A stretch of 64,000 nucleotides of DNA, taken from positions 2,418,001 to 2,482,000 of the forward strand of contig NZ_CP050145.1 of the NCBI RefSeq assembly GCF_016767715.1. The letters run 5' to 3'. The position numbers and the translations under genes were made by a program. Position 1 is the stretch's first letter. Every line of letters starts with the position of its first letter. Under the pieces are notes generated by a model. It did no database searches. It was not told where the DNA came from and saw only the letters and a program-made list of their open reading frames with translations. This DNA comes from Mycobacteroides chelonae (GTDB taxonomy: Bacteria; Actinomycetota; Actinomycetes; Mycobacteriales; Mycobacteriaceae). Shown piece by piece: positions 29,669 through 51,538 of this stretch.

Positions 29669-29734
29669 TTCGCGGGTGCCTACTCGGCTGTCTGGACCCG
29701 TGGGTTAACTCGCGTAAGCTGGTCAGGCATCGCC

Positions 29735-29940
29735 CGTGGGCGGGAGAGTGTCATGACCGCCAGTCATGGCCGCCGAAGGAGCAACACCTCTCCGTCAATC
29801 TCTCAGGCCCCCGAACCGCTCTCGGCCCCGATGCCTCTGAAAAGTGGTGATCCGATCTTGTGAGCGGATCACCCGCCGACGGGGAAAGGCTCTCGTCCGG
29901 GTATTGGCCCGGTGAGACGACCGAATCTCTCAGGCGCCCG
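29735..29940 (+). promoter_or_regulatory. Tandem glycine riboswitch upstream of gcvP
   Basis: Two glycine-aptamer-like modules are visible. Aptamer 1 (about 29739-29812) has GCGGGAGAGTG, the conserved core GCCGCCGAAGGAGCAA and CAATCTCTCAGGCCCC. Aptamer 2 (about 29834-29940) has CCTCTGAAAAGT, CGCCGACGGGGAAAGG and the matching 3' segment GAATCTCTCAGGCGCCC. The linker is about 20 nt. The expression platform runs from 29941 to the gcvP start at 30014. Glycine binding is expected to turn on the glycine cleavage gene. No protein-coding gene was seen in 29669-30013. Confidence 0.93.
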
Positions 29941-43751: not shown

Positions 43752-44159
43752 TTACGCGGTGGGGCGACCGCCAGCAGATGGATCTTTCGCTTCGAGCTCG
43801 GCCAGTGCGCGGCGCAGCGCATCGGCCTCATCGGGGCCGACGCGCTCCACGAAGTGCACCAACGCGGCCTCACGGGCACCAGAGTTGTTGGCCTGCGCCA
43901 ACGCATCCACCATCAGGCCCGCGACAAGCTCGTCACGGCCATGTACGGGTGCGTAGCGGTGCGCGCGATCATCGCGGTGCTGCACCACCAGATCTTTCTT
44001 CGCGAGACGCTGCAACACGGTCATCACGGTCGTGTAGGCGAGGTCACGCCGCGCCGACAATGCCTCGTGGACCTGGCGCACAGTCTGGGGCTCGGGGGAC
44101 GACCAGAGATGGTCCATCACCGCGCGTTCAAGTTCGCCCAGGCGTGCCATTCCGAACAT
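43752..44159 (-). CDS. blaI: BlaI-family transcriptional repressor
   Basis: 135 aa. The winged-helix DNA-binding domain (RLGELERAVMDHLWSSPEPQ, RQVHEALSARRDLAYTTVMT, LQRLAKKDLVVQHRDDRAHR) matches the penicillinase repressor family, followed by a dimer/cleavage tail. The M. tuberculosis ortholog Rv1846c represses blaC, its own unit and respiratory genes. A repeated GTACTAC element 27-49 bp upstream of the start is the candidate autoregulatory site. Confidence 0.95.
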   Translation of the reverse strand: MFGMARLGELERAVMDHLWSSPEPQTVRQVHEALSARRDLAYTTVMTVLQRLAKKDLVVQHRDDRAHRYAPVHGRDELVAGLMVDALAQANNSGAREAALVHFVERVGPDEADALRRALAELEAKDPSAGGRPTA

Positions 44160-44185
44160 TCTACGTTCACCTCCGACGCAATGCC

Positions 44186-44208
44186 GTACTACATCCAGTC
44201 GTACTACT
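44186..44208 (-). promoter_or_regulatory. Candidate BlaI operator (repeated GTACTAC element)
   Basis: GTACTAC occurs at 44186-44192 and 44201-44207, 15 bp apart. The second copy sits in an imperfect 12-bp palindrome AGTCGTACTACT (44197-44208; two mismatched pairs). Its position just upstream of blaI and its TACTAC core resemble the known mycobacterial BlaI site, but the match is from memory. Confidence 0.5.
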
Positions 44209-44355
44209 TCTGACAGCCAACGATCTAGAACTCGGTCTTTGTTCCAGCGCTGGATCCGGTCTCAACATGTGGGCCGAAATCGTTAGCACTGCCCGATGAT
44301 CAGGAGCTTTGGTGAGGGCAGTCACAACACCCGCACCTGGCGATGTCATCCTACA

Positions 44356-44377
44356 TGTGGTTAGGCTTACCTATCTT
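44356..44377 (+). promoter_or_regulatory. IdeR iron box with overlapping -10
   Basis: The 19-mer at 44356-44374 matches the mycobacterial iron-box consensus (TTAGGTTAGSCTWACCTWA) at 16 of 19 positions. The -10 hexamer TATCTT (44372-44377) overlaps its end, so iron-loaded IdeR would block RNA polymerase. The expected start is about 44384; GTG 44404 follows an AGGGAGG Shine-Dalgarno. Confidence 0.85.
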
Positions 44378-44403
44378 GTCTACGTGAAGGGAGGCTGCCA
44401 ACT

Positions 44404-45162
44404 GTGACACTGGCCATTGATCGATGCTCTTCGACGAGGAGCCTCATCGCCGACGATCCGCTGATCGCCGGGATGTCTATCCGCCAATCACTGCCGCTGC
44501 ACGAATCGAGCGCCCGGCTTCGCGAGCTGTATCCCGAGTGCCCTCGGGCCTATGGTGTCGCCGTCATGTCCGATGTCGGCCGGCGCCGATGGTGGCCGCT
44601 GGCACGAGCCCTGAACACCGACCGCCTCGAGCGGATGTACGCCCGCGCCATTGAAGAGACCGGTAGCGACGCGGTCGCCGTCCATCAACTCGCGGACGCG
44701 CTTGTGCACACCGTGGTCGGCCGATTGGTCGCCCTGGTCGTCCTGGAGGGACGCGCCTGGGATCCGGGCCTCGGCAACTTGTGGGTGTATTTCGATTCCG
44801 AGGGCTGCATCGACTGGGTGGGTGTGGTGGACCCGACGCTGCGGGTGTTGCCCAATGACCCAGACCGGGACCGGGAGCAGGTTGTGGTGTTCCCCGGCGA
44901 GGACGCACTTGCGGCGTGGACGGCGCACCGATGCCATCGCGCCCTGGCGCCGTTGTTTACGCGCCTGTCTCAGATCAGTTCCGGAACAATGGAAATCGGC
45001 CAGATGTGGCAACTGGTGGGCTCAACCGTGGTGGGTGCGGCGACGCATGTTCCGCTGCTGGCCCGCTCCAGCGAGACCGATGGAATGCGGCGCGGACAGG
45101 CGATCCTGGACCGCTTCATGACACTCGGATTGCCGGTTCGCCACAAGGCCCTTGCAATTTAG
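44404..45162 (+). CDS. Iron-regulated protein, FhuF/IucA-C-terminal-like (ferric siderophore handling suspected)
   Basis: 252 aa, no signal peptide or membrane segment. Visible blocks are SARLRELYPECPRAYGVAVM, RRRWWPLARALNTDRLERMY, VHQLADALVHTVVGRLVALV, LEGRAWDPGLGNLWVYFDSE and CIDWVGVVDPTLRVLPNDPD. These recall the FhuF-like ferric-siderophore reductase / IucA-IucC accessory group in actinobacteria, but the four-cysteine FhuF iron-sulfur signature is not evident, so the reaction is open. The promoter carries a good IdeR box, so expression should rise in iron limitation. The gene lies between blaI and the MrsI-like sRNA, where M. tuberculosis has no gene. Confidence 0.75.
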   Translation: MTLAIDRCSSTRSLIADDPLIAGMSIRQSLPLHESSARLRELYPECPRAYGVAVMSDVGRRRWWPLARALNTDRLERMYARAIEETGSDAVAVHQLADALVHTVVGRLVALVVLEGRAWDPGLGNLWVYFDSEGCIDWVGVVDPTLRVLPNDPDRDREQVVVFPGEDALAAWTAHRCHRALAPLFTRLSQISSGTMEIGQMWQLVGSTVVGAATHVPLLARSSETDGMRRGQAILDRFMTLGLPVRHKALAI

Positions 45163-45180
45163 GGCAGCCTTGCCTATCCT
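45159..45180 (+). promoter_or_regulatory. IdeR iron box and -10 of the MrsI-like sRNA
   Basis: The 19-mer at 45159-45177 matches the iron-box consensus at 15 of 19 positions. A -10 TATCCT (45175-45180) starts at box position 17, exactly as in the box at 44356. The predicted transcription start is about 45186-45188. The box begins inside the last codons of the upstream gene. Confidence 0.75.
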
Positions 45181-45185
45181 TAGAA

Positions 45186-45309
45186 ATGTCGAACGCGCTA
45201 CCGCGCGACCAGACACCCGGACCGCGCCGGAGTCCTGAGGGCTGCAGAGACCCCCGGTCCACTCGAAGGAAGTGCCCCACCTGCCTCGGCAGGTGGGGCA
45301 CTTCTTCGT
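45186..45309 (+). ncRNA. mrsI: MrsI-like iron-sparing small RNA
   Basis: A stretch of about 120 nt begins 6 nt after a TATCCT -10 under an IdeR box and ends in a strong intrinsic terminator (45270-45303). No convincing protein is encoded. Its place, directly 5' of the Rv1847-type thioesterase and on the far side of blaI, is the locus of MrsI (ncRv11846) in M. tuberculosis, the IdeR-repressed sRNA that shuts off non-essential iron proteins. Internal GC-rich repeats (CGCGCTACCGCGCG, CCGGACCGCGCCGG) can form 5' hairpins. Identity rests on position, promoter and terminator. Confidence 0.78.
45270..45303 (+). terminator. Intrinsic terminator of the MrsI-like sRNA
   Basis: Inverted repeat AAGTGCCCCACCTGCC (45270-45285) and GGCAGGTGGGGCACTT (45288-45303), 16-bp arms around TC, followed by CTTCG. 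Very stable; it ends about 36 nt before the thioesterase start. Confidence 0.9.
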
Positions 45310-45339
45310 TAACGGATCCCGCACTGATATGAACATCGC

Positions 45340-45750
45340 ATGCCAGACACGCCGGAGCACCTCAGCCAGATGCCCACCGCGCCCTTCGACAAGCTCGTGG
45401 GGCTCGAATACACCTCGCTGACACCCGAGGGAGTGTCCGCCACCCTGACGGTCACCGAAAACCTGTTGCAACCCAATGGGATCGTGCACGGTGGCGTCTA
45501 CTGCTCCGTGGTGGAAAGCGTCGCGAGCGTGTCCGCGTACGTCTGGCGTGCCAACGTGCTGGGGGAGGAGAGTGCGGTGGTCGGCGTCAACAACAACACC
45601 GATTTCCTGCGCGCCATCTCGACCGGCACGCTGACCGCGACATCCACGCCGATACATCGGGGACGTCGTCAGCAGCTGTGGCTCGTCACCATTGCCGATG
45701 ATCAGAACCGCACAATCGCACGCGGGCAGGTCCGCCTACAGAATCTGTGA
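45340..45750 (+). CDS. Hotdog-fold acyl-CoA thioesterase (Rv1847-like, PaaI family)
   Basis: 136 aa. It carries the PaaI/YbgC hotdog signature NGIVHGGVYCSVVESVASVS, with the catalytic-region H-G-G and downstream Glu, and VGVNNNTDFLRAISTGTLTA for the second strand set. It probably hydrolyses small or aromatic acyl-CoA thioesters; the M. tuberculosis ortholog is a predicted thioesterase next to the urease operon. No Shine-Dalgarno is obvious at ATG 45340. It ends at a 12-bp-stem terminator. Confidence 0.9.
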   Translation: MPDTPEHLSQMPTAPFDKLVGLEYTSLTPEGVSATLTVTENLLQPNGIVHGGVYCSVVESVASVSAYVWRANVLGEESAVVGVNNNTDFLRAISTGTLTATSTPIHRGRRQQLWLVTIADDQNRTIARGQVRLQNL

Positions 45751-45752
45751 GA

Positions 45753-45795
45753 CTCGGGTGGGCGCAACCCCCGTACGCCCACCCGAGCTCATTTT
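45753..45795 (+). terminator. Intrinsic terminator after the thioesterase gene
   Basis: Inverted repeat CTCGGGTGGGCG (45753-45764) and CGCCCACCCGAG (45776-45787), a 12-bp perfect stem with an 11-nt loop, followed by CTCATTTTC. Confidence 0.9.
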
Positions 45796-45812
45796 CGAGA
45801 GATGTCGGCCGG

Positions 45813-45883: not shown

Positions 45884-46684
45884 TCAGCTCAGCTGCAGTT
45901 TGTCGACAATCCTGTCGGCCATCTTCTGCACCAGCTGCTTTGAATTGCTTCGTGCACAAACCTGCGTCTGCACAATCAGATTCGCGACACCGTTGTACGA
46001 CACGAAGCAGCGATACTTACTGGGCCCGTACGTGAGGGCCCAATTCACCTTCTTGTCGTTCGACAACGAGACAGACACCGTCACCGGCACCTTGCGCCCG
46101 CCGGGATCGGTGAAGTTGTACGACTTTCCGTCACATTCCGTGATCTCGTCAGCTGCCGTCGAGAACTGCGCCTGCGCGGAGTCCTTGTCCCTGTACGCCG
46201 CGATGCCCTGGTAGACCTGCGCATCCGGGCTCTCGGCGTCGCCGAGCAGCATCTCGGTGCCGCGGAACGTCTCGTACTCCTTACCCACCGACTCCACGGT
46301 GAGCCCCTGTGTCACATTGCAACTCGCGTCATCAGACTCCGTGGCCGTGAAAGGCTTTTCGCGCTTGTTGGTCTTGGCGACTTCGGCGTCGAACACCTTG
46401 GAAATCTCCTCGTTGGTGAACAACGCCGCCACCATGGCTTCCTCGGTGATCTTGTCCTGGCCGGGCCACCCCGTAAGCCCCGCTGGTCCGCTGCTCACCG
46501 GAGCCGGTGCCGGCGCGTTTACCGACCGTGAGGCCGTCGTGGTGGTGGCCGTTGACGTTCCGGCGGCCTCCCGCTGGCCGGAACACCCGGACAGCGCCAG
46601 CGCGGCGATCGCCGTCGCGCACAGCACCGCCCGCGCCGTTGTGCCTGTCATCGGGCCCCCTGCCGTGTTCTTCGTCGTGGTCAT
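45884..46684 (-). CDS. Lipoprotein with PknH-sensor-like domain (array member 1, most divergent)
   Basis: 266 aa. Signal peptide with a lipobox: ARAVLCATAIAALALSGCSG (Cys acylated). A Thr/Ala/Pro-rich linker follows, then a domain with ALFTNEEISKVFDAEVA, two widely spaced cysteines (SCNVTQ, ITECDG), and another pair near the end (YRCFVSY, TQVCARSN). This pattern resembles the extracytoplasmic sensor domain of mycobacterial PknH. The outer ATG 46684 overlaps the next gene's stop (ATGA); ATG 46651 gives a cleaner signal peptide. It is the least conserved member of a four-gene array. Confidence 0.85.
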   Translation of the reverse strand: MTTTKNTAGGPMTGTTARAVLCATAIAALALSGCSGQREAAGTSTATTTTASRSVNAPAPAPVSSGPAGLTGWPGQDKITEEAMVAALFTNEEISKVFDAEVAKTNKREKPFTATESDDASCNVTQGLTVESVGKEYETFRGTEMLLGDAESPDAQVYQGIAAYRDKDSAQAQFSTAADEITECDGKSYNFTDPGGRKVPVTVSVSLSNDKKVNWALTYGPSKYRCFVSYNGVANLIVQTQVCARSNSKQLVQKMADRIVDKLQLS

Positions 46685-47445
46685 GCCGGAATCCATTCGG
46701 CCATGCGGTCGACGATCGCGGTCACTATCGGAGTGCCGTTGCCGTTCTGGCACAGCAGGCTTCCGAAGAGTGCGTTGTTCTTGACCCGGTAGTCGTAGAA
46801 ACACCGCCACCCTGCGGGTTTTCCGTCCTTGAGCTCCTGTCGCACCCACTTCACGCTGGTGCCGTCGTTCGAGAATTGACCGATCCGCCATTCGATATCG
46901 CCCTCGGTCTGGCGCGAGTCCGCGCAGGACGCGAGCGACGGGGGATATGCGGTCTGAAGCTGGTTCGCCGCGGCCTTCGCATCGGGGAACAACACGACCG
47001 CTTGCCACACGATGTGGTCATACCGGTCCTGTGTTTCCTGCAGACGCGAGCCCCGGTAGGTGGTCCACTCATCACCCAGGCTCTCGCTGCGCAACCCGGT
47101 GAGTGCCTGACACTTGCCTGTCGCGGAGGCATCGCTGGGCCGAGTGGACTTGAACTCGTACGTCAGCGGCGATCCGACCAGCCTGCCCACATCGTCGGCG
47201 GAGATGATGATCGATTCCGCCTTGTCGGGCGTGACGATCACCGGTGCCGGCGGTTCGAGTGAGGTGGTGACCGGTGGAGCACTGGACTTGGGGCTCGCGA
47301 TCGCCCCGTCCTGCCCGTGATCGGTCGGCGCCGATGTCTCGGTGGCACCGACCGGTATCGGCTTGATGCCCCCGGTCTCCGTTCCACAACTCACCGCGAG
47401 CATCGCTGCCAGGCCAAGCCATCCGACAGCCAACACGTGACGCAT
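46681..47445 (-). CDS. Lipoprotein with PknH-sensor-like domain (array member 2)
   Basis: 254 aa. Signal peptide HVLAVGWLGLAAMLAVSCGT (lipobox AVSC). Low-complexity linker, then IVTPDKAESIIISADDVGRL, VGSPLTYEFKSTRPSD, the shared block LGDEWTTYRGSRLQETQD and the ending WRCFYDYRVKNNALFGSLLC. These blocks recur in members 3 and 4 at equivalent positions, so they are tandem duplicates. Probably exported and anchored on the outer face of the membrane. ATGA coupling with member 1. Confidence 0.87.
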   Translation of the reverse strand: MRHVLAVGWLGLAAMLAVSCGTETGGIKPIPVGATETSAPTDHGQDGAIASPKSSAPPVTTSLEPPAPVIVTPDKAESIIISADDVGRLVGSPLTYEFKSTRPSDASATGKCQALTGLRSESLGDEWTTYRGSRLQETQDRYDHIVWQAVVLFPDAKAAANQLQTAYPPSLASCADSRQTEGDIEWRIGQFSNDGTSVKWVRQELKDGKPAGWRCFYDYRVKNNALFGSLLCQNGNGTPIVTAIVDRMAEWIPA

Positions 47446-47535
47446 CTCAATCCCTCCCTGCCGATTTCAGACCCGTATCGACCCAAATCATGGCTACATC
47501 GGATCGCTGGCGCCCAGTGTTACACGAGCGATTTC

Positions 47536-48264
47536 TTACTTCGGCTGGGTGGCGGCAACCATCCTGTCCACGATGGCGCGCAGCGCCGGACCGCCGTTGG
47601 CCACCTGACAGACCGTCGCCGAGAGCAGCAGATTCTCGATGATGCGGGCCTCCAACATGCAGCGCCATCCCGACGGGCGCCCATCGGCGATTTCATCGAG
47701 CACCCACTGGGCGCGGTCGTCGGATGCCTCGCGGACAGACACGCGCCAGATCGCCGTGTCCACCTTCAGTTCCTCGCCGGAACAACTGCGGACATCGGCG
47801 GGAAACTCCTTTGAGTAGTTCTCCCGCGCATCGTCTTTCGACGAGTACAGCAGCACCCGCTGGGTGACCGAGTGCGTGAACGTGTCCTTGCCCTCCCGAT
47901 ACCAGACGTCCCGGTAGGTGGTCCACTTGTCGCCGACGTCGACGGTCAGCGGCACCATCAGCGCCTGACACGATTGCTTGCCGTCGATCGGCGACGACGA
48001 TCGCGGATTCGAGGACTTGCCCTCGTATTCGAGGGTCGAGCCGACCAGCTCGGACACGTCATTTTTGGAGACGATGATCGAGTTGGCTCTGTCGGGACTG
48101 ATCGCATCCACCGCGGACGTTGTCGACGTCTTCGATGCGCCGGATGTCGCCGACGGCCCGGACGTCGCAGGGTGCTGGCCACCTCCGAAAATTGAGCATC
48201 CCGTCAGGACCGCGGCGGCGCACACCGCGACGGCAGTCTTTCGGTACACCGATCTGCTGGTCAC
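47536..48264 (-). CDS. Lipoprotein with PknH-sensor-like domain (array member 3)
   Basis: 242 aa from GTG 48264, chosen because AAAGGA lies 6 nt upstream and because it clears the stop of member 4. Signal peptide VYRKTAVAVCAAAVLTGCSI (lipobox LTGC). Core blocks are DRANSIIVSKNDVSELVGST, LEYEGKSSNPRSS, VGDKWTTYRDVWYREGKD and WRCMLEARIIENLLLSATVC, aligned with members 2 and 4. It is 91 bp from member 2. The ligand is unknown. Confidence 0.86.
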   Translation of the reverse strand: MTSRSVYRKTAVAVCAAAVLTGCSIFGGGQHPATSGPSATSGASKTSTTSAVDAISPDRANSIIVSKNDVSELVGSTLEYEGKSSNPRSSSPIDGKQSCQALMVPLTVDVGDKWTTYRDVWYREGKDTFTHSVTQRVLLYSSKDDARENYSKEFPADVRSCSGEELKVDTAIWRVSVREASDDRAQWVLDEIADGRPSGWRCMLEARIIENLLLSATVCQVANGGPALRAIVDRMVAATQPK

Positions 48265-48275
48265 AGCGATTCCTT

Positions 48276-49031
48276 TCACTGCGGGATCCACGCCGCGATC
48301 CGGTCGGTAATGGTCGTCACACCGGGTACGCCGTCACCGTACTGGCATAGGTACGTCCCGAAGAGCACGTTGTTCTTGTTGCGGAAGTCGAAGAAGCAGT
48401 GCCACGTGGCGGTCTGTGTGATCTGCAGTTGGGTCCATTTCGCCGCGCCATCACTGATTTCCGCGATGTTGCTGATCTTCCACTTCTGGTCCTGCTTGGA
48501 GATCTCCGCGTTGGCGCATGTTCTCGCTGCGGACTTGGGAAACGCGTGTGCGAAAGCCGCCGCGGCCTCCTCGCGGGACGGATACAGGACGGCCACCTGA
48601 CTCACGATGTATGCGGTGGTGTCCTTGGTCTCGCGGTAATAGTTCCAGCGATATGTCGTCCATTCGGATCCCAATTGGCCGGCCCGCGGGTTATCCAGGT
48701 TGGCACAGTCCGGTGCACCACCGACGGCATCGGTCGGTGGTGTCGATGTGTTGTCGTCGTACTCGAGCGTGGTTCCCAGAATCTTCCCGACATCCGAACG
48801 TGAGCCCAGGATCGAGTCGATCTTCTCCGGAGTGACCACCAGAGGCGGGGGTGGAGGCGCTTTTGTGGTCGTGGGGATGGACGCGGGCGCTGAGGTGCCC
48901 GCTGTCATGGGCATATCCGCCGCAGTGGTGCTCGGTGCCGACACCGGCTTTATCCCCTCGCTGGGTTGACCGCACCCGGATATCAGCACTCCGGCCGACA
49001 CCACACACCACAACGTCATCCCGTACCGCAT
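48276..49031 (-). CDS. Lipoprotein with PknH-sensor-like domain (array member 4, promoter-proximal)
   Basis: 251 aa from ATG 49031, preceded by AGGAGGG at 6 nt; the longer open frame upstream has no support. Signal peptide YGMTLWCVVSAGVLISGCGQ (lipobox ISGC), a Pro-rich linker (TTTKAPPPPPLV), and the blocks VTPEKIDSILGSRSDVGKIL, GTTLEYDDNTS, LGSEWTTYRWNYYRETKD and WHCFFDFRNKNNVLFGTYLC. First gene of the array, divergent from ureA across 145 bp. Confidence 0.88.
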   Translation of the reverse strand: MRYGMTLWCVVSAGVLISGCGQPSEGIKPVSAPSTTAADMPMTAGTSAPASIPTTTKAPPPPPLVVTPEKIDSILGSRSDVGKILGTTLEYDDNTSTPPTDAVGGAPDCANLDNPRAGQLGSEWTTYRWNYYRETKDTTAYIVSQVAVLYPSREEAAAAFAHAFPKSAARTCANAEISKQDQKWKISNIAEISDGAAKWTQLQITQTATWHCFFDFRNKNNVLFGTYLCQYGDGVPGVTTITDRIAAWIPQ

Positions 49032-49176
49032 TGCGAACCCTCCTGATCGACTCCACACCCCACAAGCTCCGTGGATTCTCGCACTCACCATCTCGACCGC
49101 AGGGCAAAACCGTCCGCTGTCTGCGCAACGGCCGTGAAAGTGCCAGGCAGCCCGGATCATGGCAGGATCGCCCCTT

Positions 49177-49479: not shown

Positions 49480-49808
49480 GCCACATGATTCCTGGCGAAT
49501 ACCTGTTCGCACCGGACGATATCGAACTCAACGCGGGAGCGACCGTCATCGAGCTCGACGTCGTCAACACCGGTGACCGCCCCGTGCAGGTCGGTAGTCA
49601 CGTACATTTCCCGCAGTCGAACCCGGCGCTTGACTTCGATCACGAGGCCGCGCACGGACACCGCCTGCACATTCCTGCGGGTACCGCGGTTCGCTTCGAA
49701 CCCGGTGTGGCGCAAAAGGTCCGACTGGTTCCCCTACGTGGCCGCCGAGAAGTGCACGGACTGACGCTTGACGCCCCGGGACATCTGGATGGCGGTGAAC
49801 CCGCATGA
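49476..49808 (+). CDS. ureB: Urease beta subunit
   Basis: 110 aa. Typical [60 protein letters not shown] and [19 protein letters not shown]. Coupled on both sides by 4-bp overlaps (ATGA with ureA and with ureC). Confidence 0.97.
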
Positions 49809-51538
49809 CCCGGCTATCCCGGGAGCATTACGCCAAGCTGTACGGGCCGACAACGGGTGATCGCATCCGCTTGGCCGACACCGATCTGCTTATCGAGATC
49901 ACCGAAGATCGATGTGGTGGGCCGGGTTTGGCGGGCGAGGAGGCGGTCTTCGGTGGTGGCAAGGTGCTGCGCGAGTCGATGGGGCAGAGCCGCCTCACCC
50001 GCGCCGGGGGAGCGCCGGACACCGTCATTACGGGCGCCGTCATCATCGATCACTGGGGAATCATCAAGGCCGACATCGGTATTCGAGACGGACGCATTGT
50101 CGGTATCGGCAAGGCGGGTAATCCGGATATCATGGACGGGGTTCACCCCCAACTGATCGTCGGCCCGTCCACCGAGATCATCGCCGGCAATGACCGGATC
50201 GTCACCGCGGGCGGCATCGACTGCCACGTCCACTTCATCTGTCCCCAACTGGTCGAAGAGGCGATCGGCGGCGGCATCACCACGATGATCGGCGGTGGCA
50301 CCGGCCCCGCCGAGGGCAGCAAGGCCACCACAGTCACTCCCGGAGCATGGCACCTGGGCCGCATGCTGCAGGCGCTCGACAGGTGGCCGGTGAACGTGTT
50401 GCTGCTGGGCAAGGGCAACACCGTCAACCCCGAATCCATGTGGGAACAATTACGCGGTGGCGCAGCGGGTTTCAAACTTCATGAGGACTGGGGCACCACG
50501 CCCGCGGTGATCGATGCGTGCCTGCGTGTCGCCGACGAGGCCGACGTCCAGGTCGCCCTGCATTCGGACACCCTCAACGAAACAGGTTTCGTCGAGGGCA
50601 CTCTGGAGGCGATCGCCGGCCGTGCGATACACGCCTACCACACCGAGGGCGCCGGCGGCGGCCATGCTCCCGACATCATCACCGTGGCCAGTCACCCGAA
50701 CGTGATGCCAAGCTCCACCAATCCCACGCGCCCGCACACGGTCAACACCCTGGACGAGCATCTCGACATGCTCATGGTCTGCCATCATCTCAACGCCGCG
50801 GTGCCGGAGGATCTTGCCTTCGCCGAGAGCCGGATTCGTCCGTCCACGATCGCTGCCGAGGATCTGCTGCACGATATCGGCGCCATCTCGATGATTGGCA
50901 GCGACAGTCAGGCCATGGGACGCATCGGAGAAGTGGTGATGCGCACCTGGCAGACCGCGCATGTGATGAAGAAGCGCCGGGGTGCGTTGGAGGGGGACCC
51001 GTCCGGGGCCAGAGGCAACGACAACAACCGCGTCCGCCGGTATGTCGCGAAATACACGATCTGTCCGGCGATCACGCACGGCATCGATCACGAGTTGGGT
51101 TCGGTAGAAGTCGGCAAGCTGGCCGATCTGGTGCTGTGGGAACCGGCCTTCTTTGGGGTCCGGCCACATGTCGTCATCAAGGGCGGCGCCATCGCGTGGG
51201 CTGCCATGGGCGATGCCAACGCTTCCATTCCCACCCCGCAACCCGTGCTGCCACGGCCCATGTTCGGCGCCATGCCCAACGTGGCACCCGGTTTGGCCGT
51301 GCACTTCGTCTCGCCGACGGCCATCGAGGACGATCTGGCGGCCCGGCTCGCGTTGCGGCGCAGGCTGGTTCCCACCCGCGATGTGCGCCATCGCGGCAAG
51401 GCCGACCTGCCGCTGAATGACGCGATGCCGGATATCCGAGTCGATCCCGATACCTTCACCGTACGTATTGACGGCGAGGTCTGGCAGGAACAGCCGGCCA
51501 CCGAACTGCCCATGGCGCAACGATATTTCTTGTTCTGA
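49805..51538 (+). CDS. ureC: Urease alpha subunit (catalytic)
   Basis: 577 aa with the dinickel site ligands in place: [13 protein letters not shown] (two His), [13 protein letters not shown] (Lys carbamylated to bridge the nickels), [24 protein letters not shown] (His/Asp), and the mobile flap [20 protein letters not shown] with the catalytic His. [20 protein letters not shown] is the downstream signature. All residues needed for activity appear intact. The last base of its stop is followed by the ureF ATG at the 1-bp overlap level. Confidence 0.98.

Follow-up and report, generated by a model that had tools for sequence, protein, structure and literature searches.

A putative two-output low-iron unit joining a FhuF-fold protein gene and an MrsI-type small RNA in Mycobacteroides chelonae and its relatives

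Why do a protein gene and a small RNA (sRNA), each behind its own iron box, stand side by side at one short locus, and does the protein gene belong there? The question is raised by the 64,000-nucleotide (nt) stretch of Mycobacteroides chelonae DNA analyzed here (positions 2418001–2482000 of a 5.06-Mb single-contig genome; hereafter the window, in whose numbering the locus is described). In it, the gene of a 252-amino-acid protein of predicted FhuF-type fold (44404–45162, + strand) is followed by an RNA resembling MrsI (ncRv11846) of Mycobacterium tuberculosis (45187–45310, +). We consider it about 75% probable that this is a low-iron unit under repression by IdeR with two outputs, the protein and MrsI. 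We computed directly what this reading draws on: the matches of the boxes, the layout of the promoters, the fold and covariation of the RNA, the conservation of the seed, the adjacency across the family and the predicted fold of the protein.

The boxes were scored by their matches to the degenerate 19-nt consensus TWAGGTWAGSCTWACCTWA, as printed in PMC9505556. Box 1 (44356–44374, +), located 5' of the protein gene, matches at 16/19 positions and box 2 (45159–45177, +) at 15/19, so that the two sites and scores given in an initial annotation of this DNA agree exactly with the consensus in its printed form. The two boxes are the sole sites of at least 14/19 in the window, where the chance expectation is 0.48 such sites and 0.02 sites of at least 15/19 (mean of 100 first-order Markov sequences). 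Genome-wide, 11 sites (two of them overlapping, box 1 included) reach at least 16/19, while the reversed pattern yields 2. Scoring with a non-degenerate consensus gives lower matches, 15/19 for box 1 and 13/19 for box 2. By their sequence, both promoters thus carry consensus operators of the IdeR regulon, and box 1 may already be among the M. abscessus iron boxes listed in the same source.

Each box overlaps a −10-like element, TATCTT at the 3' end of box 1 (44372–44377, +) and TATCCT at box 2 (45175–45180, +), and both elements begin at position 17 of their boxes. The initial annotation had described the two promoters as identical in geometry, which is accurate for the window and does not extend to its relatives. 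Among 113 distinct loci, which include some that lack the protein gene, 72 have a box 1 of at least 15/19 at the homologous place; in these, TANNNT begins at position 17 of box 2 in 70/72 loci, whereas at box 1 it does so in 24/72 and is found at position 1 in 46/72. The predicted sRNA promoter is therefore conserved, while the matching geometry of both boxes is a local trait. A −35-like TTGCAA (45152–45157, +) is located 17 nt upstream of TATCCT, the IdeR box filling the spacer, and by eye a CTTGC-like stretch can be seen 5' of box 2 in most of the aligned loci; no consensus −35 was seen by eye at box 1.

The RNA itself measures about 124 nt when its 5' end is placed from the −10-like element and its 3' end from the terminator, which bears out the earlier proposal of an RNA of about 120 nt closed by a terminator with 16-base-pair arms. 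The stretch 45186–45309 folds with z = −5.74, and the intrinsic terminator (45269–45304, +) is composed of two such arms (45269–45284 and 45289–45304) joined by the loop CTCG and followed by TTCGTT, a weak T tail. We aligned 49 sequences picked by hand for diversity and drew the structure from the sequence of the window. Of the cells of this 31-pair structure, 94.5% form standard pairs, and changes on both sides are found in 20 pairs, compared with a mean of 11.7 in shuffled alignments and 6–9 in slid versions; all 16 terminator pairs show such changes. In the core hairpin (GGACCG...CGGTCC, 45219–45260, +), helix 1 pairs in 99.0% and helix 2 in 90.2% of cells, with two pairs of helix 2 unpaired in 14/49 and 29/49 sequences, respectively. 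The 7-nt apical loop AGGGCUG (45238–45244, +) is invariant in all 49 sequences, and the stem beneath it shows one compensatory change in each of two loci (L034 and L035), which supports the core hairpin. The covariance model built from this alignment, in which the window copy is itself included, matches 45205–45322 with 98.3 bits. In Rfam 15 the sRNA has no match at the gathering score and three sub-threshold matches at a lax threshold.

MrsI is known from mycobacteria as an iron-sparing sRNA. M. tuberculosis MrsI is placed at 2096766–2096867 of H37Rv (PMC8628891), possesses a 7-nt apical loop with a 6–8-nt seed and directly targets bfrA (PMC11188477), and according to both reviews it sits between blaI and Rv1847. 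The RNA of the window resembles it in location, as it lies between a divergent gene encoding a BlaI/Penicillinase_R repressor (43752–44159, −; PF03965, E 4.2e-28) and a gene for a hotdog thioesterase (45340–45750, +), taken as Rv1847 type, with the FhuF-fold gene here also in between. Further common features are the IdeR box at the predicted promoter, the structured RNA of about 100 nt with an intrinsic terminator, and the 7-nt apical loop, the seed complement of which is present in bfrA leaders of the genus (predicted pairing). In contrast to MrsI as described, it has an upstream gene that carries its own box and overlaps the sRNA promoter, its length exceeds the reported 100–106 nt by about 20 nt, no BfrA reaches the family cut-off in its genome, and its relatives extend beyond Mycobacterium. 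Because of the same flanks, the covarying helices, the invariant loop and the CAGCCC motif in bfrA leaders, the RNA is very probably an MrsI ortholog. Sequence, covariation and synteny thus support both an MrsI-like sRNA between the known flanks of MrsI and an iron gene with its own iron box, as had been suggested at the outset.

How widespread are the two partners, and do they travel together? With up to three mismatches, the MrsI core pattern was detected in 156/198 genomes of the genus, with 0 reversed controls among the matches listed, and a query based on slow growers gave matches in 354/395. Across the family, the covariance model recognized MrsI in 97/121 genomes, representing 22/30 genera. 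The exact core is also present in named records of Rhodococcus, Prescottella, Gordonia and Williamsia; these belong to a set of at least 116 loci, which is not to be read as a frequency. In an order-level search of 298 genomes, 23, all outside the family, gave matches of at most 37.6 bits; matches to the terminator only score 22–24 bits, and these 23 were not counted as MrsI. In turn, the protein gene was found in 124/198 genomes of the genus and in 64/121 of the family (14/30 genera). Where the gene and a listed MrsI occur together, they are adjacent on one strand in 101/102 genomes of the genus, the exception being G046; this count covers 149 of the 156 genomes with the motif, seven being missing. 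Another 22 genomes of the genus with the gene had no listed motif, of which at least one (G174) does have MrsI (locus L030). In the family, adjacency is retained in 53 of the 57 genomes possessing both, spread over 12 genera, with exceptions in three genomes of genus g2 and one of g68. Some genomes of the genus in which MrsI was not detected (e.g., G022, G069, G078, G100, G129, G180) carry a protein copy of 52–55% identity, and one further g68 genome shows only a weak MrsI hit elsewhere (38.4 bits). A partial literature search returned no report of the gene-MrsI pair or of MrsI beyond Mycobacterium; the family-wide range, the stop codon within the operator described below and a lineage that lost the known target may thus be new.

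The order of genes in the named records bears on which state came first. Rhodococcus and Prescottella have the gene-MrsI-thioesterase organization with blaI not next door, in rapid growers and Mycobacteroides blaI adjoins the same module, while slow growers (except L066), Gordonia and Williamsia show blaI-MrsI-thioesterase without the gene. We found that on a thioesterase tree of 85 rows (47 with and 38 without the gene; those of the named loci in which the thioesterase was complete and the upstream sequence long enough) the presence label needs 4 changes, compared with a mean of 28 after shuffling, and that the slow-grower clade has 27 rows without and one with the gene, although the tree has few columns and 35/82 of its inner branches are open. 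The simplest explanation of this pattern is loss in slow growers, where the absence of the gene is thus probably secondary, and the gene-MrsI pair looks like the older state of the family, with the gene-less layout arising later. The initial annotation had regarded the protein gene as newly inserted between blaI and the sRNA, which does not agree with a pair spanning 12 family genera and a slow-grower absence most simply read as loss. A gain of the gene beside MrsI in this lineage would suit the M. tuberculosis site, which lacks the gene according to reviews, as well as the 27/28 gene-less slow-grower rows. Yet it would have to accommodate the same gene order in records of Rhodococcus, Prescottella, Mycolicibacterium and Mycobacteroides and the small number of changes on the tree, and we regard it as highly improbable.

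The protein has as its best database relative an "iron reductase [Mycobacteroides abscessus]" of 95% identity, and several other close relatives bear the same name. Its predicted fold is of the FhuF/NIS-synthetase C-terminal type and thus qualifies as a FhuF fold, yet the window protein matches 0 Pfam families. The best of its relatives scores 22.1 bits against PF06276, below the gathering cut-off of 25.2, and 14/47 relatives match this family at E up to 1; a PDB search by sequence gave nothing useful, and an NCBIfam search returned no relevant family. The FhuF-type C-terminal cysteine motif binds [2Fe-2S]. In the 47 relatives this motif is found in none, and no cysteine column exceeds 30/47. 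In this respect the protein differs from the E. coli ferric-siderophore reductase FhuF (7qp5; PF06276), which has the conserved [2Fe-2S] cysteines and the Pfam match that it lacks. Solved siderophore synthetases match it as well as or better than FhuF does, although of the NIS synthetases IucA, IucC, AcsD and DesD (542–595 residues) only the C-terminal part is represented in its 252 residues. That it is a true ferric-siderophore reductase, as the names of its relatives say, is in the light of the cysteines and the synthetase matches unlikely. A Mycobacteroides-type copy of the gene on contig C14 of genome G146 (292935–293681; locus L006) has one TGA inside the matched stretch.

The two partners are also interlocked at the level of the sequence. 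In the window, the TAG stop codon of the FhuF-fold gene (45160–45162) occupies positions 2–4 of box 2, and among 78 distinct loci box 2 contains the stop in 56, while the stop falls past the box in 9 and ahead of it in 13, which makes 65/78 inside or beyond. In some lineages (e.g., P0012, P0028, L165) the gene runs through box 2, and the operator letters appear to encode a C-terminal tail, LGQPCL. A terminator scan of 44160–45800 revealed none between the gene and the sRNA; it called the MrsI terminator and one weak site within the open reading frame at 44932, with 0.7 sites expected in shuffled sequences. Since the stop codon is usually inside box 2 and no clear terminator intervenes, MrsI is probably embedded in the 3' end of the mRNA of the FhuF-fold gene. 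Small RNAs embedded in a 3' untranslated region (UTR) and having an internal promoter form a known class, e.g., MicL. Judged from its sequence, the locus shares with this class a separate sRNA promoter set within the end of a coding gene and the common terminator; it differs from examples such as MicL in that the internal promoter is an IdeR-type operator holding the stop codon, and in that read-through is predicted.

Which transcripts might the sRNA act upon? In the leaders (−80 to −1) of 28 bfrA genes of the genus, the commonest 6-mer is CAGCCC, which is complementary to GGGCUG in the loop and is present in 25/28; next comes the overlapping AGCCCA (23), and the Shine-Dalgarno-like GGAGTG is found in 18. 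These leaders derive from the 30 best-scoring loci of the 57 genomes over the cut-off, after omission of L251 and L256, whose starts were misplaced; roughly two thirds belong to genomes that lack the FhuF-fold gene, and as the leaders are related, the count is not one of independent cases. BfrA over the family cut-off is encoded by 57/59 genomes of the genus, the two exceptions being the genome of the window and G050. No CAGCCC is present from −300 to +200 around the match start of the four ferritin-type matches of the window's genome. This genome also has two tandem ferritin-type genes (G000:C1 130892–132041), one with an IdeR-like leader by eye. Two hits of a seed-complement-plus-Shine-Dalgarno pattern in this genome precede real-looking genes, one for a ThiF/rhodanese protein and the other for a carotenoid oxygenase of the RPE65 type, a kind of iron enzyme, yet these hits were no better than chance and were rejected.

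From these elements we infer a mechanism in which IdeR binding, the iron response, read-through, target repression and the role of the protein are all proposed on the strength of sequence. When IdeR-Fe leaves box 1, the FhuF-fold, siderophore-related protein would be made from an mRNA that ends at the MrsI terminator and so carries MrsI as its 3' end. When IdeR-Fe leaves box 2, the MrsI ortholog would be made alone, the operator of its promoter extending over the gene's stop codon; MrsI would thus lie embedded in a 3' UTR and also have an internal promoter of its own. Its loop, GGGCUG, would pair with CAGCCC in the leaders of mRNAs for dispensable iron proteins and lower their output. The conserved adjacency makes it plausible that the protein and the sRNA share a low-iron module, as the initial annotation had supposed. 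Tentatively, and at somewhat below even odds, we would go further and view MrsI as one half of an ancient low-iron operon that joins a protein and an sRNA in the Mycobacteriaceae (taken broadly, as in GTDB), of which slow growers lost the protein, while Mycobacteroides lost bfrA and kept the RNA for other targets.

The same arrangement could come about if the gene and MrsI were simply two independent IdeR-repressed neighbors, kept together by a short region and compact promoters, with no shared transcript or joint function. Each does have its own box and −10-like element, and each occurs without the other: MrsI without the gene in 47/149 listed genomes of the genus and in 40/97 of the family (13 genera), the gene without an MrsI hit in seven genomes of g68 and g69, and both partners apart in 4/57 genomes. 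On the other hand, the two are adjacent in 53/57 genomes of 12 genera, and as the gene in most loci (65/78) ends within the operator or past it, little room is left for a separate terminator; we see independence as a real possibility, which we nevertheless lean against. Another view, that the RNA only forms the 3' UTR of the gene's mRNA together with its terminator and has neither a promoter of its own nor a trans function in this lineage, would fit the scan, which finds neither a terminator between the two nor a promoter, and the fact that BfrA, the best-known MrsI target, reaches the family cut-off in none of six Mycobacteroides-type genomes. Such an RNA would hardly be expected to keep the arrangement of box 2 and −10-like element in 70/72 loci and an unchanged loop in all aligned sequences, nor to persist with its box where the gene is absent, and this view appears quite improbable.

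Several observations weigh against a two-output unit built around MrsI. The MrsI promoter matches the sigma-70 consensus at 8/12 positions, below the threshold, and the scan calls no promoter in 44160–45800. MrsI was not found in 42/198 (core pattern) or 41/395 (slow-grower query) genomes of the genus, and since the compared sequences are related, the counts do not stand for independent cases. With M. tuberculosis MrsI the comparison was made by its description, and the name "iron reductase" is doubtful for the partner since this protein is without conserved cysteines. In the window's genome, the pattern of seed complement plus Shine-Dalgarno sequence gave 16 hits, compared with 25 for the reversed pattern, and so shows no enrichment. 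Finally, BfrA reaches the family cut-off in 0/6 Mycobacteroides-type genomes, chosen by a protein copy of at least 92% identity, all six of which have only weak ferritin-like matches. The seed core is intact in these BfrA-less genomes, and MrsI would therefore have other targets there.

As for the surroundings, four tandem paralogs of PknH_C (PF14032) lipoprotein-like genes (45887–49106, −) separate the thioesterase from urease genes. An Rfam match to 5_ureB_sRNA (RF02514, 96.4 bits, E 5.8e-24) at 49967–50261 (−) is antisense to a urease-like open reading frame (49805–51538) and probably reflects conservation of the coding sequence and not an sRNA. The window also contains a glycine riboswitch aptamer (RF00504, 55.4 bits) at 29731–29828 (+). 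In M. smegmatis, the msmeg_3630–3636 operon encodes, according to PMC6684656, a ferric ABC transporter that the cells require to grow in low iron independently of siderophores, and this operon is possibly located near the MrsI locus.

With MrsI detected in 22/30 sampled genera of the family and its seed loop invariant in the 49 aligned sequences, the targets of this sRNA become a comparative problem. Through the FhuF-fold partner, a link between the acquisition of iron and its sparing could be tested at a single locus, and genomes that have MrsI and no BfrA over the cut-off may serve as natural tests of which targets matter.
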